From the NCBI RefSeq assembly GCF_000025325.1, contig NC_013743.1:2852001-2916000 (forward strand): a stretch of 64,000 nucleotides of DNA, written 5' to 3'. Numbering within the stretch: the stretch's first letter is position 1; every line of letters begins with the position of its first letter. The translations under genes and the position numbers were made by a program. The notes under the pieces were generated by a model. That model was not told the origin of the DNA and searched no databases. It worked only from the letters and a program-made list of their open reading frames with translations. Shown in pieces: positions 18,641 to 26,545 of this stretch. This DNA is from Haloterrigena turkmenica DSM 5511 (GTDB taxonomy: Archaea > Halobacteriota > Halobacteria > Halobacteriales > Natrialbaceae).

Positions 18641-18855
18641 GTCTCGACCTCGAGACTGGAGTCGATTCACTGGCCTCGAGTCGAGGGCCATATCGCAGTT
18701 CAACGCCCCGTCTCTCGAGGCGGACTAACAGGGAAGGATGCAGTCGGCTCGAGCGACGGGCAGTCGACCGAGTACCGAACTGACGGCGAGTAACAAACCG
18801 AAGCGAGAGACGACCTAGAGGCGTCGCTCGTCGGGATTGAATGGTGTATGAAGAG

Positions 18856-18977
18856 CGAGGCAGCGAACCGGGTCTCCCAGAGGCTCGCGCACTCCAGTAC
18901 TCGCCGGGACGCAGGCGGGCTTAACGTCCGTGTTCGGGATGGGTACGGGTGGTTCCCCGCCGCTGTGGCCGCCTCAA
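18856..18977 (-). rRNA. rrf: 5S ribosomal RNA (orphan copy)
   Basis: The minus strand reads TTGAGGCGGCCACAGCGGCG, continues through the conserved CCCGTACCCATCCCGAACAC, and ends with GTACTGGAGTGCGCGAGCCT and CTGGGAGACCCGGTTCGC, the standard haloarchaeal 5S sequence of about 122 nt. Ends are set by similarity and may be off by a few bases. No 23S or 16S gene lies upstream: the SDR gene begins about 315 bp away on the opposite strand. The gene is therefore separated from an rRNA operon. No obvious disabling change is seen. Confidence 0.9.
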
Positions 18978-19056: not shown

Positions 19057-19255
19057 CTTCTGATCTTTCCGTCGAACGCTGACTCGGTTCGTTCCCGGCT
19101 CCTTTGGCGGTGCTCGGTTCCTGCTTGTCCGGCATCGTCCTCTTCAGCCGTCCTCTCGGCGGTCGCTGCTCGAGATCGCTCCGTCGGACGACGGGTCCCG
19201 CTTGAGATCGAACCGATAGCGGAGCCCCGACTGGACGGCCGAACCGAAAGACTGT

Positions 19256-19275
19256 ATTAATTGAACAATTAATCA
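19256..19275. promoter_or_regulatory. Shared TetR-type operator, SDR copy
   Basis: ATTAATTGAACAATTAATCA contains a perfect inverted repeat (ATTAATTG-AA-CAATTAAT) 16 nt before the SDR start codon. It matches the sequence before the P450 gene (21371-21390) at 18 of 20 positions. The TetR gene at 21545-22165 is the obvious candidate binder. Confidence 0.65.
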
Positions 19276-19291
19276 GCAGTGAGGACTACTC

Positions 19292-20062
19292 ATGAACGGA
19301 TTAGACGGGAAGACGGCCGTGGTAACGGGCGGTGGATCCGGAATCGGGCGCGCGTCGGCGAAACGCTTCGCCGACGAGGGGGCGAACGTCGTCGTCGCGG
19401 ACATCGACGCGGAGACCGGTCGCGAAACGGTCGATCTGATCGAGGACGCCGGCAATAACGCGACGTTCGTCGACGTCGACGTCTCCGACCTCGAGTCGGT
19501 CGAGCGAATGGTCGACGTCGCGGTTGACACCTATGGAAGCCTCGATTTCGCACACAACAACGCGGGTATCCTCACGGGGTTCGCAGACGTCACCGACATC
19601 GACGCCGCAGACTGGGACAGACTCCTCGAGGTCAACCTGAAGGGGATCTGGGCGTGTCTGAGGGCCGAACTTCCCGTCATGACGGAAAACGGTGGCGGGG
19701 CGATCGTCAACACGGCCTCCGAGTCGGGACTCGTCGGGATGGGCGGCCTCGCCAGCTATGCCGCCAGTAAACACGGCGTTGTCGGCCTCACGAAGACGGT
19801 CGCGCTCGAGTACGCGACGCGGGGCGTGCGGGTCAACGCCATCGCACCGGGACCGACGAACACGAACATCCAGTCCGGGATGTCGGGAGACAGCGATCCC
19901 TCGACCATGGAGTTCGACACGTCGGCGATGATCGACGTCCCCATGGACCGCATCGCGGAACCGGAAGAGATGGCCGGCGCGGTCGCGTTCCTCTGTTCCG
20001 ACGACGCCTCGTACATCACCGGCCACACCCTCCCCGTCGACGGCGGGCAGGCCGCGGACTGA
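19292..20062 (+). CDS. Short-chain dehydrogenase/reductase (SDR)
   Basis: A 256-residue classical SDR oxidoreductase. The cofactor motif TGGGSGIGRA lies at residues 12-21, with VVADIDAETG near 35-44 giving an Asp after beta-2 that favours NAD(H). Also present are NNAG (about 89), the catalytic Ser in TASESGLVG and YAASK near 154-158, and the C-terminal TGHTLPVDGG. The substrate is unknown. Its promoter carries the same operator as the divergent-side P450, so the two probably act in one oxidative pathway, for example alcohol oxidation after P450 hydroxylation (inference). Confidence 0.92.
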   Translation: MNGLDGKTAVVTGGGSGIGRASAKRFADEGANVVVADIDAETGRETVDLIEDAGNNATFVDVDVSDLESVERMVDVAVDTYGSLDFAHNNAGILTGFADVTDIDAADWDRLLEVNLKGIWACLRAELPVMTENGGGAIVNTASESGLVGMGGLASYAASKHGVVGLTKTVALEYATRGVRVNAIAPGPTNTNIQSGMSGDSDPSTMEFDTSAMIDVPMDRIAEPEEMAGAVAFLCSDDASYITGHTLPVDGGQAAD

Positions 20063-20138
20063 CTGCCGGCCCTCCCCGTCGGGGAACACTCAACACGCAA
20101 CTATCCGAGGATTCGGCGGTATCGGTGCCGCGGTCGGA

Positions 20139-21368
20139 TTACGCGTTCTTCCTCACGTCGCAGGGAAGCGACTCGAGACCGTAGAGACCGCTCAGCGGCC
20201 GAAGATCCGATAGATCGGCGTCCAATCGGTCGAAGCGCTCGAGCAGTTGCCCCAGGGCGACGTCGGCTTCCATCCGCGCGAGGTGCGCGCCGAGACAGAA
20301 GTGAACCCCCGTTCCGAACGCCATGTGACGGTTCGGGTGGCGCTCGGGCCGGAACTCTTCGGGCGCGTCGAAGACGTCCGGATCGCGGTTCGCGGCGCCC
20401 AGCCAGAGCGTGACGACGTCGCCGGTCTCGATCCGTCGCCCGTTTAGCTCGACGTCCTCCACGGCGATCCGCTTCAGCGATTGGATCGGCGACCGGTATC
20501 GGAGCACCTCCTCGATGGCTCGCTGCCGGTCGACCGCTCCCGTTCGAATCGCGTCCGTCACCCCCGCTTCCTCGACGGACCAGATCGCGTTGGTGAGGAG
20601 GTTCGTCGTCGTGATGTTGCCCGCGAGGAGGAGCAGTATACAGAAGCCGACCTGTTCGCCCCTGGTTAGTTCGTCCGCGTTCGCCGCGAGCGTGATCAGA
20701 TCGTCCCCATTGCCGCCGTCGCGTTCCTCCAGCAGCGTCGCGAAGTAGCCGCCCATCTCTCGCTGGGCCCGTTCCTGTTCCCGTTGCACCCGCTGTAGCT
20801 CCGCCTCGCTGTCGTCGTCGGGTCGTGCGACGAGTGCGTCCGACCACGCCTTGAACTCGTCGCGGCGCTCGGCGGGGATCCCCAGTAGCTCGGCGATCAC
20901 GATGACGGGAAGCGGAATCGCGAACTCGTCGACGAAGTCGAACGCGTCCTCGTCCTCGAGGTCGTCCAACAGTTCCTCCGTCACCGCTTCTACTCGCGGC
21001 TGATACTCCCGGATGGCGCCGGGCTGAAATCGTTCATCGACGAACCCGCGGAGTCGGGTCTGTTCCGGCGGGTCGGTCGAGATCATCGTCTGCAGCATCG
21101 GAAGGTCCTCGTCACCGTCGCTGTCGCCGTCGTTCGAGGACTTCTCGGGGTCGAACGCGCGGTTCGCTGTGAACGTATCGTGGTCTTTGAGCACGCGCTC
21201 GACGTCTTCGTACCGGAACACATCCCACGTCTCTCGCTGTTCGTCGTAGTGAACCGGACTCTCCTGTCGCATCTCGGCGTACCACTCGAACGGCGAGAGC
21301 TGTCCCTCGCGGCTTCGGATCGCTTTCGGTGACTGGCCCACGCCGACGACTGAATCGGGGGACTCCAT
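20139..21368 (-). CDS. Cytochrome P450
   Basis: A 409-residue soluble, bacterial-type P450. The heme-thiolate loop FGTGVHFCLGAHLAR (Cys about residue 350) is intact, as are the K-helix ExxR in EEVLRYRSP and the meander region. The I-helix reads LAGNITTTNLL, where the usual acid before the conserved Thr is replaced by an amide/hydrophobic pair, which may affect proton delivery. It requires ferredoxin and a reductase that are not encoded here. It converges with the SDR gene (about 76 bp between stops) and its start codon abuts the shared operator. Confidence 0.93.
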   Translation of the reverse strand: MESPDSVVGVGQSPKAIRSREGQLSPFEWYAEMRQESPVHYDEQRETWDVFRYEDVERVLKDHDTFTANRAFDPEKSSNDGDSDGDEDLPMLQTMISTDPPEQTRLRGFVDERFQPGAIREYQPRVEAVTEELLDDLEDEDAFDFVDEFAIPLPVIVIAELLGIPAERRDEFKAWSDALVARPDDDSEAELQRVQREQERAQREMGGYFATLLEERDGGNGDDLITLAANADELTRGEQVGFCILLLLAGNITTTNLLTNAIWSVEEAGVTDAIRTGAVDRQRAIEEVLRYRSPIQSLKRIAVEDVELNGRRIETGDVVTLWLGAANRDPDVFDAPEEFRPERHPNRHMAFGTGVHFCLGAHLARMEADVALGQLLERFDRLDADLSDLRPLSGLYGLESLPCDVRKNA

Positions 21369-21370
21369 GA

Positions 21371-21390
21371 ATTAATTGACCGATTAATCA
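21371..21390. promoter_or_regulatory. Shared TetR-type operator, P450 copy
   Basis: ATTAATTGACCGATTAATCA sits 2 nt upstream of the P450 ATG, followed by ATTG that extends the dyad. It differs from the SDR operator at two positions. A repressor here would sit over the expected transcription start of a leaderless mRNA. Confidence 0.65.
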
Positions 21391-21544
21391 ATTGTAGCTC
21401 TTTCGGTGGCGGGCTCCGGTCGCGGGCCGTAACTGACCCGTGAGAGAACGATCGGCCGTCGCGGAGGCCGGCGAAGCACGGCCCAAGGCGGGAATTCGAG
21501 TCGGCGTAGCGACGACAACGCGAACTGCGGTTCGAGCGGCTCTC

Positions 21545-22165
21545 CTAACTCTCGAGGGAGAGATCGTCGATGATCTCGTCGACGAGCGCCTCTACCCTGT
21601 CGACGGCGTCCTCTCGGTTCGTCGTCGTCTGTGTGTGGATTCCCTGTTTGAGGAGAAAGAGGAGGTGGTCAGCCGTGGGCTCGGGGTCGACCGAGCGGAA
21701 CTGCTCGCGTTCGACTCCCGCGCGGATGATTCGGACGATCGCGTCCCGGAGTCCCGCCTCCACCGCCGTCGTTTTGTTACGGAAATCGTCGTCCCACGTC
21801 GCGTGCGCCCACAGTTCGACGAAAACCCGCGCGATCGCCGTCTCGATATCGGACGGCGGAGCGGACATCACCGCTTCGACCTGCATCGGTTTCGGGTGCA
21901 GGATTTGACCGACGAACCGCCGAAGTTCCGTCTCCGCGTCGGTGATCGGTTCCTCGGCCTGCTGGCCGAGGAATATATCCACGAAGACGTCGAGCATCGA
22001 CAGTAACAATTCGTCTTTGCTATCGAAGTAATGGTAGATCAGCGACGGGTTCTGGCCCAGTTCGTCGCCGATATCCTTGATTGAGAGGTCCGCATATCCG
22101 TGTTTGACGAGCGCGCGAAACGCGGCCTCTCTGATTCGTTGTTCGGTTTCGGGCTGACCGTTCAT
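21545..22165 (-). CDS. TetR-family transcriptional regulator
   Basis: A 206-residue regulator. The N-terminal HTH (residues about 8-55) reads RIREAAFRALVKHGYADLSIKDIGDELG followed by SLIYHYFDSKDELLLSMLDVF, the canonical TetR pattern. The C-terminal ligand domain has the TetR_C-type layout with a helical core. It is encoded 180 bp upstream of the P450 on the same strand and is the likely repressor of the SDR and P450 genes. The operator is not found in front of its own gene. Confidence 0.92.
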   Translation of the reverse strand: MNGQPETEQRIREAAFRALVKHGYADLSIKDIGDELGQNPSLIYHYFDSKDELLLSMLDVFVDIFLGQQAEEPITDAETELRRFVGQILHPKPMQVEAVMSAPPSDIETAIARVFVELWAHATWDDDFRNKTTAVEAGLRDAIVRIIRAGVEREQFRSVDPEPTADHLLFLLKQGIHTQTTTNREDAVDRVEALVDEIIDDLSLES

Positions 22166-23892: not shown

Positions 23893-24675
23893 TCAGCGCG
23901 CGATCCGATCGCGAATCCGAGCGACGGTTTCGACGAACGCGGTGCTCGCTCGATCTCGAGGCCGCTCCAGCCGGACGTCGACAACGTCGTCGACGCGGCC
24001 CGGCCGGTCGTCCATGACGACGACGCGGTCACCGAGTGCGATCGCCTCCTCGATGTCGTGGGTGACGAATAGCACGGTTTTGTCGGTCTCGCGCCAGATC
24101 TCGAGCAGTTCGCCGTGCAGCCGTTCGCGCGTGCCCGAATCGAGGCTCGCGAACGGTTCGTCCAGCAGTAACACCTCGGGATCGACGGCGAGGGCGCGAG
24201 CGATCCCGACCCGCTGTTTCATCCCGCCGGAGAGGTCGCGCGGATACGCGTCTCCGAACCCCGACAGTCCGACGAGTTCGAGCAGGTCGCGGACTCGCGC
24301 CTCGCAGTCCGGACAGTCGCAGGCGGGGCGATCGAGTCCGAACCGGACGTTCCCGCAGACAGTTCGCCACGGGAAGAGGGCGTCCTCCTGGAAGACCATC
24401 CCGCGGTCGACGCCGGGTTCCGTAACGGGATCGCCGTCGACGAGGACCCGGCCCGCCGTCGGCGACTCGAGGCCGGCGATGAGTCGGAGCAGCGTCGTCT
24501 TCCCGCAGCCCGACGGGCCGACCACGCAGCAGAACTCGCCGTCGGCCACCTCGAGCGAGACGTCGGCCAGCGCCTCGAGGTGAGCGCTGCGGGTGTCGTA
24601 CCGTTTCGAGAGGCCGTCGACGACGATCTTCGCCGCGGCGGACTCCCGATTCGGATCGGTATCGGAGTCGATCAC
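23893..24675 (-). CDS. ABC transporter ATPase (nitrate/sulfonate/taurine type)
   Basis: A 260-residue ATPase of the SsuB/TauB/NrtD group. Walker A is GPSGCGKTTLL, the Q-loop is MVFQEDALFPW, the signature LSGGMKQRVGIARAL, Walker B VLLLDEPFASLD and the H-loop VTHDIEEA. A cysteine-rich insertion CDCPDCEAR just after the Q-loop region is unusual and could bind a metal or be redox active. The GTG start at 24675 overlaps the permease stop (GTGA); another GTG lies two codons upstream. It completes a three-gene importer. Confidence 0.93.
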   Translation of the reverse strand: MIDSDTDPNRESAAAKIVVDGLSKRYDTRSAHLEALADVSLEVADGEFCCVVGPSGCGKTTLLRLIAGLESPTAGRVLVDGDPVTEPGVDRGMVFQEDALFPWRTVCGNVRFGLDRPACDCPDCEARVRDLLELVGLSGFGDAYPRDLSGGMKQRVGIARALAVDPEVLLLDEPFASLDSGTRERLHGELLEIWRETDKTVLFVTHDIEEAIALGDRVVVMDDRPGRVDDVVDVRLERPRDRASTAFVETVARIRDRIAR

Positions 24676-25511
24676 TGCCACGCGAGAACCCTCCGTTCGA
24701 CCGCGCGAAACGCGACGTCCATGCCGACGTAAACGACGCTGATGAGGAACATGTACGCGATACTCGTGTCCAGCGCGAGGTTGTTCGAGGCGTTGATGAT
24801 CTCGTAGCCGACGCCGGGCGCACCGAACAGTTCCGCGCCGACGACGATCATCCAGCATCGACCGATGCTCGTGCGAACGGCGGTGAGCACGCTCGGCGCG
24901 GCGGCCGGCAGGACGACGAGCCGGATCATCTGCCAGTCGGACTCGACGCCGAGCCCGGAAGCGACTTCGATGTACCCCCTCGAGACCCCCTCGACGCCGC
25001 TGTAGGCGCCATAAAGGGTGATCCAGAACGCCCCGACGAAGACGATAAACGCCGCGCCGGTGTGGTGGATACCGAACCAGAGGACGGCGAAGACCACCCA
25101 CGCCAGCGGCGGAATCGGGCGGAGGAGCCGGACGACCGGCCGGAGGTAGTCGTCGACGCGAGTCGACCAGCCCATCGCCACGCCGACCGCGATGCCGGCG
25201 GCGTTCCCGACCACCAGACCGGGGACGTAGTGAAACAGGCTCTGGCCGAGTTTGTACAGTCCGACCGGGACTGCCGCGGTCCCCGCGACCGGGAGATCGA
25301 CGGAGACCCGTCGGACGAAGAGGTCGACGAACGCGCTCGCCGACGCGACCGGGCCCGGGAGGAGATACGACGGCGTCGTCGCCCGCGCGGCGAGCCACCA
25401 GAGGGCGAGGAAGGCGGCGATCCCGACCGTCCCGCGGACGAATCGGATCGGATCGTCGCCGACGAGTCGCGCCGTCCGGTCGTCCGCCTCGAGGTCGATA
25501 TCGACGCTCAT
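24672..25511 (-). CDS. ABC transporter permease (nitrate/sulfonate/taurine type)
   Basis: A 279-residue inner-membrane permease of the BPD_transp_1 family, with about six hydrophobic segments. The EAA loop that docks the ATPase is visible as EVASGLGVESDWQMIRLVVLPAA. It starts MSVDIDLEADD at an ATG that overlaps the stop of the binding-protein gene by 4 bp, giving translational coupling. It would form the channel for the substrate delivered by the lipoprotein upstream. Confidence 0.92.
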   Translation of the reverse strand: MSVDIDLEADDRTARLVGDDPIRFVRGTVGIAAFLALWWLAARATTPSYLLPGPVASASAFVDLFVRRVSVDLPVAGTAAVPVGLYKLGQSLFHYVPGLVVGNAAGIAVGVAMGWSTRVDDYLRPVVRLLRPIPPLAWVVFAVLWFGIHHTGAAFIVFVGAFWITLYGAYSGVEGVSRGYIEVASGLGVESDWQMIRLVVLPAAAPSVLTAVRTSIGRCWMIVVGAELFGAPGVGYEIINASNNLALDTSIAYMFLISVVYVGMDVAFRAVERRVLAWQ

Positions 25512-26545
25512 TCGCTGACCGCGTCGTACGCGTCGAAGTGAAACAGTTCCTCGTTCGAAACCACGGCGTCGGTGTTGCCGACGTCGGCGGCATACCGTGC
25601 GATCCGTTCGGTCGGGTCGGCGATCCGGTACGGATCCGTGTAGAAGTTCGCCGCCTTCGACTCCATCGCCGCCGCGGCGCGTTCGTCGCTCATCCCGGAG
25701 CCGATGATCGCACTCGCGTGTTCCGCGGCCGTCTCCGGATGCTCGCGGATGAACTCGGTCGCCTCGAGGTGCGCCGAGACGAGTTCCCGCGCGAGGTCGG
25801 TCGCCTCGAGGACCCGTACCTGGGCGAACATGACGGTGACGGGATGGTCGGAAAAGACGTCGCCCGACCACGCGACCGACTGAAAGTCGCTGTCGCCGTC
25901 GCCGATCGCGGTCGCGTACGGTTCCTGAATCATCGTCGCGTCGAGGTCGCCCGACGCCATCGCCTGGGGAGTCCTCGCCGGCGGCACCGTCGACTTCGAG
26001 ACGACCGATTCCCGCTCGCCGAGGTCGAGGTCTCGCTCGATCCAGTAGCGCAACACCACATCGGGAACGCTGCCGTCGGGTGCCGCACCGATCCGAGGTT
26101 TTCGGCCTTCTCGAGACTCGAATCGGGAGAACGCGTCGCGCCCGCGCTCGTTGTACAGGTCCGCGAACGCCGACGTTCCCATCACGTGGAATCCTTCAGA
26201 GGAGTTCGCGGTCAGAACGCCCGCGGCTTTCTCGCGGTCGACGAGGACCATCGCCGGCGTGACGCCGAAGAAGGCGACGTCGATCTCGTCGCCGGCGAAG
26301 GCTTTGACGACGTCCGGTCCCGACGCGAACCGTTCGGGCGTCACGTCCGCGGAGACGTCGTCGTAGAGTCCCTCCACGGTCATCACGTAGTGGTGCATGT
26401 TCGGATAGATCGGCACATACGCGACCGATAGCGCCTCGAGGTCACCGCTCCCGGCGAGCGAATTGAGGCAACCGGCCGTCGATAGGCCGAGCGATGCGAC
26501 TGCCGTACCGCGTTTCAGGACGGTTCGACGGCGCTGATCCAGCAT
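25508..26545 (-). CDS. ABC substrate-binding lipoprotein (NMT1/SsuA-like)
   Basis: A 345-residue exported binding protein. The twin-arginine start RRRTVLKRGTAVASLGLS is followed by a lipobox-like STAGC, so it should be Tat-exported and lipid-anchored. The mature part has the NMT1/THI5-SsuA fold pattern (AYVPIYPNMHHYVMTVEGLYDD, VAFFGVTPAMVL). Relatives bind taurine, alkanesulfonates, nitrate or thiamine-precursor pyrimidines; the ligand is not decidable here. It is the first gene of the importer operon, with an inverted repeat just upstream. Confidence 0.88.
   Translation of the reverse strand: MLDQRRRTVLKRGTAVASLGLSTAGCLNSLAGSGDLEALSVAYVPIYPNMHHYVMTVEGLYDDVSADVTPERFASGPDVVKAFAGDEIDVAFFGVTPAMVLVDREKAAGVLTANSSEGFHVMGTSAFADLYNERGRDAFSRFESREGRKPRIGAAPDGSVPDVVLRYWIERDLDLGERESVVSKSTVPPARTPQAMASGDLDATMIQEPYATAIGDGDSDFQSVAWSGDVFSDHPVTVMFAQVRVLEATDLARELVSAHLEATEFIREHPETAAEHASAIIGSGMSDERAAAAMESKAANFYTDPYRIADPTERIARYAADVGNTDAVVSNEELFHFDAYDAVSE

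Follow-up and report, generated by a model that had tools for sequence, protein, structure and literature searches.

A candidate operator shared by SDR and P450 promoters follows an adjacent TetR-family regulator across haloarchaeal genomes

Why would an oxidoreductase gene and a cytochrome P450 gene in a haloarchaeal genome carry nearly the same AT-rich palindrome in front of their start codons, and is the neighboring TetR-family gene the link between them? We addressed this question in a stretch of 64,000 nucleotides from Haloterrigena turkmenica DSM 5511 (hereafter the window; C1:2852001-2916000 of G000), within a genome of 5,440,782 bases in 7 contigs. The ORF list, profile matches and motifs delineate a 256-residue SDR family oxidoreductase (19292..20062, plus strand), convergent with a 409-residue, CYP109/CYP119-like cytochrome P450 (20139..21368, minus strand) recognized by profiles, motifs and a PDB match. 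Directly 5' of the P450 gene, 176 bases upstream and on the same strand, lies the gene of a 206-residue TetR-family regulator (21545..22165, minus strand), the proposed repressor, assigned by profiles, an HTH containing QNPSLIYHYF and a fold match; these coordinates agree with the first-pass annotation, which had placed a TetR-family gene immediately upstream of the P450.

The candidate operator at the SDR promoter, ATTAATTGAACAATTAATCA, occupies 19256..19275 (plus strand) and is kept at 14 SDR orthologs located beside a TetR ortholog. Its counterpart at the P450 promoter, ATTAATTGACCGATTAATCA, occupies 21371..21390 (minus strand) and was recognized by pattern matches, promoter alignment and a weight matrix. 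On recount, the two 20-mers are identical at 18 of 20 bases, as first reported, and their GC contents are 15% and 25%, respectively, against 66.9% for the window. The core common to both is TTAATTGNNCNATTAA, which reads TTAATTGAACAATTAA at 19257-19272 in the SDR copy and TTAATCGGTCAATTAA on the P450 strand at 21372-21387 in the other. The claim that one copy is a perfect inverted repeat holds for the SDR site, in which perfect arms of 8 bases flank a 2-base center (ATTAATTG-AA-CAATTAAT, 19256-19273). Both sites do lie just 5' of a start codon in GC-rich DNA, the 16-mer core ending 19 nt 5' of the SDR start codon and, at the P450 gene, 3 nt 5' of the ATG.

At up to three mismatches, the window contains four matches to the core (both sites, on both strands) against 0.44 expected, and a scan of the 5.44-Mb genome at up to one mismatch returned the two window sites only, which speaks against a 20-mer widespread at unrelated genes. 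A weight matrix trained only on sites of other genera ranked the window sites first, at 31.8 and 28.8 bits; the best other non-overlapping window position scored 12.1 bits, and none of 100 simulated windows reached 28.8 bits. The next-best sites in the same genome, at two mismatches, lie just upstream of a large surface-protein-like gene (C1:2265023) and between genes of a peptide-transporter-like operon (C3:54120). We do not claim these as additional targets because the reversed-pattern control yields about as many.

The regulator combines a TetR_N HTH (PF00440, 1.1e-13) with a TetR-type C-terminal domain (PF13977, 8e-10), and its structural model (pLDDT 85.8) finds its best PDB fold in 3crj, a TetR. 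An identity as the choline regulator BetI was rejected, the score being 34.8 bits against an NCBIfam BetI equivalog cut-off of 201. Orthologs occur in 8 other genomes of the family (69-90% identity; next-best TetR, 36%) and, in the class sample, in a further 11 genomes (57-71%), giving a range of 57-90% across the class. P450 and SDR genes near these orthologs were located by tblastn and their promoters were then aligned. The close-genome search suggested in the first-pass annotation, for the SDR-P450-TetR set with the same 20-mer, thereby recovered the palindrome TTAATTGnTCAATTAA at the P450 and/or SDR promoter in all 20 of the 20 haloarchaeal genomes with a TetR ortholog, at up to two mismatches in 19 of them and at three in G018, beside a P450 remnant. 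Hosts of the cassette include Haloterrigena salina, Natrinema zhouii, Natrialba asiatica, Haladaptatus sp. DYF46, Haloferax gibbonsii, Halocatena salina and Halostagnicola larsenii. The G018 locus, with a 63-residue P450 remnant (L040:9132-9320), an intact TetR and a degenerate operator, has the appearance of cassette decay.

Across 125 genomes of the family, the site at up to one mismatch was present in 6 of the 9 TetR-bearing genomes and in 2 of the 116 that lack the regulator (Fisher p = 4.8e-7, an optimistic value because the genomes are related). The palindromic site therefore tracks the regulator at the core promoters of neighboring targets, and a chance or compositional origin is ruled out by the expected counts, the genome scan, the family genomes and the simulated windows. 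Comparison across genomes shows the identity of the putative operator, its confinement to the two promoters and its linkage to the TetR lineage. Autoregulation is common, though not required, among TetR-family repressors; here, the 75 bp preceding each TetR ortholog gave no match to the site at up to four mismatches.

Loci of other composition serve as natural controls. At L093 and L081, the SDR gene directly follows the P450 gene as an operon, and a single palindrome stands before the P450 only. Seven P450 ortholog loci were found without a TetR ortholog (L078, L080, L084 and L103-L106), and at these the palindrome was not found, the promoters differing from it by at least four mismatches. 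In five of the seven, the P450 has another TetR next to it, which shares 26-31% identity with that of the window, and most of the seven promoters have a ACTRANNNNTYAGT-like palindrome instead, in the same place. At L084 and L105, whose TetRs are 78% identical to each other, this palindrome is also present at the SDR gene and upstream of the TetR gene. We propose ACTRANNNNTYAGT as a putative second operator type, a weaker claim because L080 and L103 match the motif only with a mismatch and because the group lumps at least three TetR lineages. Both operator kinds are interspersed across the P450 tree, and well-supported branches force at least three changes.

The first-pass proposal of an operator common to the SDR and P450 genes under the adjacent TetR has thus stood up, and we regard such a shared-operator regulon as very likely, because the palindrome accompanies the TetR in 20 genomes and gives way to another where a different TetR has taken its place. 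A broader scenario, which we put forward tentatively and with somewhat less than even confidence, is that the P450/SDR cassette is mobile and has several times exchanged its repressor for one of a distant TetR lineage, the operator at the same promoter position being rewritten to match (TTAATTGnTCAATTAA versus ACTRANNNNTYAGT), and that its acid-less P450 and SDR act on a compound still to be named. If true, the series of repressor swaps would offer a natural system for studying the joint exchange of a regulator and its sites. At L094 and L095, a second, different P450 (~40% identical, I-helix AGHST) carries the palindrome at its own promoter (L094:11662-11677; L095:11547-11562; pattern scan), so the regulon can apparently grow. 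In G270, the genome of L095, the sites at this second P450 and at the SDR persist and the promoter of the first P450 has no operator; that P450 aligns only partly, and an internal deletion is likely. In G394 (L097), the SDR gene lies a few kb off and has no site.

The position of the palindrome within each promoter was assessed by assigning BRE and TATA elements from the archaeal promoter pattern, and these assignments are presumptive at both genes. At the SDR promoter, the presumed BRE/TATA lies at 19245..19259 (plus strand; CCGAAAGACTGTATTAA region), conserved in the promoter alignment of relatives as (A)AAGGACTATATTAA. Operator 1 overlaps the presumed TATA element TGTATTAA, the palindrome starting inside the TATA-like CTATATTAA. 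At the P450 promoter, the presumed BRE/TATA spans 21388..21406 (minus strand), reading CCGAAAGAGCTACAATTGA on the P450 strand and CCAAAAGRRCTATAAYTGA in aligned relatives. The order is CCAAAAG, CTATAAYTGA, palindrome and ATG (presumed BRE, TATA, operator and start), with operator 2 between the presumed TATA and the start. This layout would fit leaderless transcription, and the order of elements would suit repression. The spacing from palindrome to P450 ATG is 3 nt in 14 of 16 site-bearing loci and 7 nt in the other two; from palindrome to SDR ATG it is 13-19 nt in 14 loci.

In the mechanism we infer, a TetR dimer, or a pair of dimers, would bind directly to TTAATTGnTCAATTAA, over or just 3' of the TATA at the SDR and P450 promoters, and thereby block TBP, TFB and RNA polymerase. 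By analogy with the behavior of the TetR family, the module may be ligand-induced: a small hydrophobic molecule, probably the substrate or product of the P450, would enter the C-terminal pocket and release the TetR, inducing both genes together. That the palindrome is instead a core promoter element, a TATA or initiator of AT-rich archaeal promoters, could be argued from its AT-richness and its overlap with the presumed SDR TATA, yet we give this next to no credence: the palindrome, at up to one mismatch, occurs nowhere else in the genome, is missing from nearly all TetR-less genomes among the 125 of the family, is lost or altered when the TetR lineage changes, and forms a near-perfect dyad that at the P450 gene has a distinct TATA/BRE upstream of it. 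The TetR might also activate one or both promoters rather than repress them, since some family members are activators, as described for FasR in a passage of PMC7382501; however, the site lies over the presumed TATA or 3' of it, close by the start codon, where a bound protein would be well placed to block, and we consider activation quite improbable.

The P450 has the Cys ligand, ExxR and I-helix Thr of its family (PF00067, 8.6e-34; I-helix AGNITT at 249-254, ExxR at 287-290, Cys 358 in FGTGVHFCLG). Its model has a pLDDT of 79.9, and its best PDB match is 5l90 (E 1.3e-95), which we take to be CYP109E1, CYP119 also being among the nearest solved relatives. By the CYP naming rule, membership of the family would call for >40% identity to a named CYP109. 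Among the cassette loci, WP_247995870.1 of Halocatena salina, the second P450 of L097/L109, is CYP109BK1. Bacterial CYP109s oxidize fatty acids, terpenoids, ionones and steroids (PMC9962201), a range that, by analogy, may only narrow the candidate substrates of the window P450. The genome encodes two P450s. It has eight 2Fe-2S ferredoxin-domain matches, none of them inside the window, which for ferredoxins of this type upholds the earlier remark that a local partner is lacking; in a survey of archaeal P450s, redox partners usually lay outside P450 operons (PMC9962201).

An acid usually precedes the I-helix Thr in P450s. The first-pass annotation was right that it is missing here; the residue is Ile in all orthologs. 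The feature is not special to the module, as AGNITT is found in every ortholog and also in most of the 44-47% identical haloarchaeal relatives sampled, for which reason we read the loss as a trait of this wider sampled clade. Other haloarchaeal P450s have AGNVTT, AGHVTT or AGHSTT, with one AGVETS, and the Paenibacillus relatives differ from the haloarchaeal clade in having AGNET where the latter has AGNIT.

The SDR carries TGGGSGIG (12-19), NNAG (89-92) and the Ser/Tyr/Lys motifs NTASES and SYAASK, and beta-2 ends in an Asp (VVVADID), which suggests NAD+ as cofactor; taken together, these features place it among classical NAD-type SDRs. It most resembles broad 'glucose 1-dehydrogenase'-like and cyclohexanol dehydrogenase-like SDRs, and scores 250.7 bits against the glucose 1-dehydrogenase subfamily NF005559 (curated cut-off 215), a broad subfamily that does not imply the substrate.

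How the two enzymes relate is less clear-cut than how they are controlled. All three genes occur together in 13 of the 20 TetR-bearing genomes, in several arrangements, one of them a P450-SDR operon. A P450 ortholog is lacking in three genomes that have SDR and TetR (G156, G405 and G146), and an SDR ortholog in three that have P450 and TetR (G104, G019 and G334). The coupling is thus frequent and, on this gene content, not obligate. The initial idea that the P450 hydroxylates and the SDR oxidizes remains plausible, but a common pathway is not forced, because each enzyme occurs alone with the TetR in three genomes. We lean slightly toward a two-step oxidation in which the CYP109-like P450 would act first, oxygenating the molecule with electrons from a ferredoxin encoded elsewhere, and the NAD-type SDR would, most simply, turn the resulting alcohol into a ketone. 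The same single-enzyme genomes, in which TetR and operator are retained, together with the second, different P450 that joins the regulon at L094/L095, fit a parallel detoxification in which the TetR controls both genes through the operator and P450 and SDR act on different molecules; against this stands the joint presence in 13 of 20 genomes, operon included, and we consider it unlikely, though a serious contender. A P450 performing another reaction (peroxygenase, reductive or dehydrating), its proton-delivery acid being Ile, is improbable: the invariance of AGNITT across orthologs and the AGNETT of the Paenibacillus sisters would favor it, but the motif is shared by most of the more distant haloarchaeal relatives, and Thr, ExxR and Cys ligand are all kept.

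Apart from the P450, SDR and TetR genes, nothing in the neighborhood is widely shared, and we found no conserved neighbor around the cassette loci that would name the substrate. At L104 there are lactate permease and glycolate oxidase-like genes, and at L096 a metal ATPase; being lineage-specific, they were discarded as substrate clues. The surroundings of the cassette vary between genomes, and in Halocatena salina and Halostagnicola larsenii it is carried by large plasmids; the cassette thus probably moves as a unit, and it may represent a self-contained catabolic or detoxification unit spread horizontally.

The closest counterparts of the module in kind appear to be the bacterial CamR and EdcR systems and, among archaea, FadR. 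In the P450cam-camphor module of Pseudomonas putida, a TetR-family repressor lies beside a P450 and an alcohol dehydrogenase and regulates locally. PMC4592980 describes CamR as a homolog of the Tet repressor that responds to camphor. Both modules join a TetR-family gene to a P450 and a dehydrogenase gene; the haloarchaeal cassette differs in its archaeal promoter, the absence of a local 2Fe-2S ferredoxin, the SDR nature of its dehydrogenase and its CYP109-like P450. In the estradiol (edc) cluster of Caenibius tardaugens, the TetR repressor EdcR likewise uses one palindrome at two promoters, those of divergent operons, overlapping core promoter elements, whereas that system is bacterial, with a larger catabolic cluster, another palindrome and a known effector (PMC8700777). 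FadR of Sulfolobus acidocaldarius, a local repressor, is also an archaeal TetR-family regulator with few palindromic sites (semi-palindromic, only four in the genome, released by acyl-CoA), but controls a 30-kb fatty acid cluster rather than a P450-SDR cassette (PMC6449355). Archaeal CYP109 enzymes, which the window P450 resembles, have been reported (PMC9962201, PMC12250468), and a 2023 survey lists a plasmid of Halorubrum lacusprofundi with a CYP109G27->SDR operon (PMC9962201); these reports describe no regulator or operator, and 'TetR' has 0 occurrences in PMC9962201. In the open papers searched, we found no description of an archaeal TetR-P450-SDR module.

A regulon this small, sharply defined and portable could provide an inducible promoter pair for halophiles, and the TetR ligand may offer a route to the substrate of an archaeal P450. 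The cassette loci would also constitute a natural experiment in regulator replacement. To our knowledge, few archaeal regulons have both operator and regulator assigned.

Other features of the window were also recorded. An orphan 5S rRNA gene (18855-18976, minus strand), in a window without 16S or 23S, differs at ~10 of 122 positions from the three other, mutually identical 5S copies of the genome; G025 and G026 have an identical orphan copy next to the cassette, and G024 has a more typical one. An eL15-Euryarchaeota ribosomal protein leader (RF03144; 17521-17593, minus strand) stands at the start of the eL15 gene and is likewise found in G024-G026. Farther along (23893-26545, minus strand), genes for the substrate protein, permease and ATPase of an ABC importer, with sulfonate/taurine/nitrate-type likeness, adjoin a RIO kinase gene.
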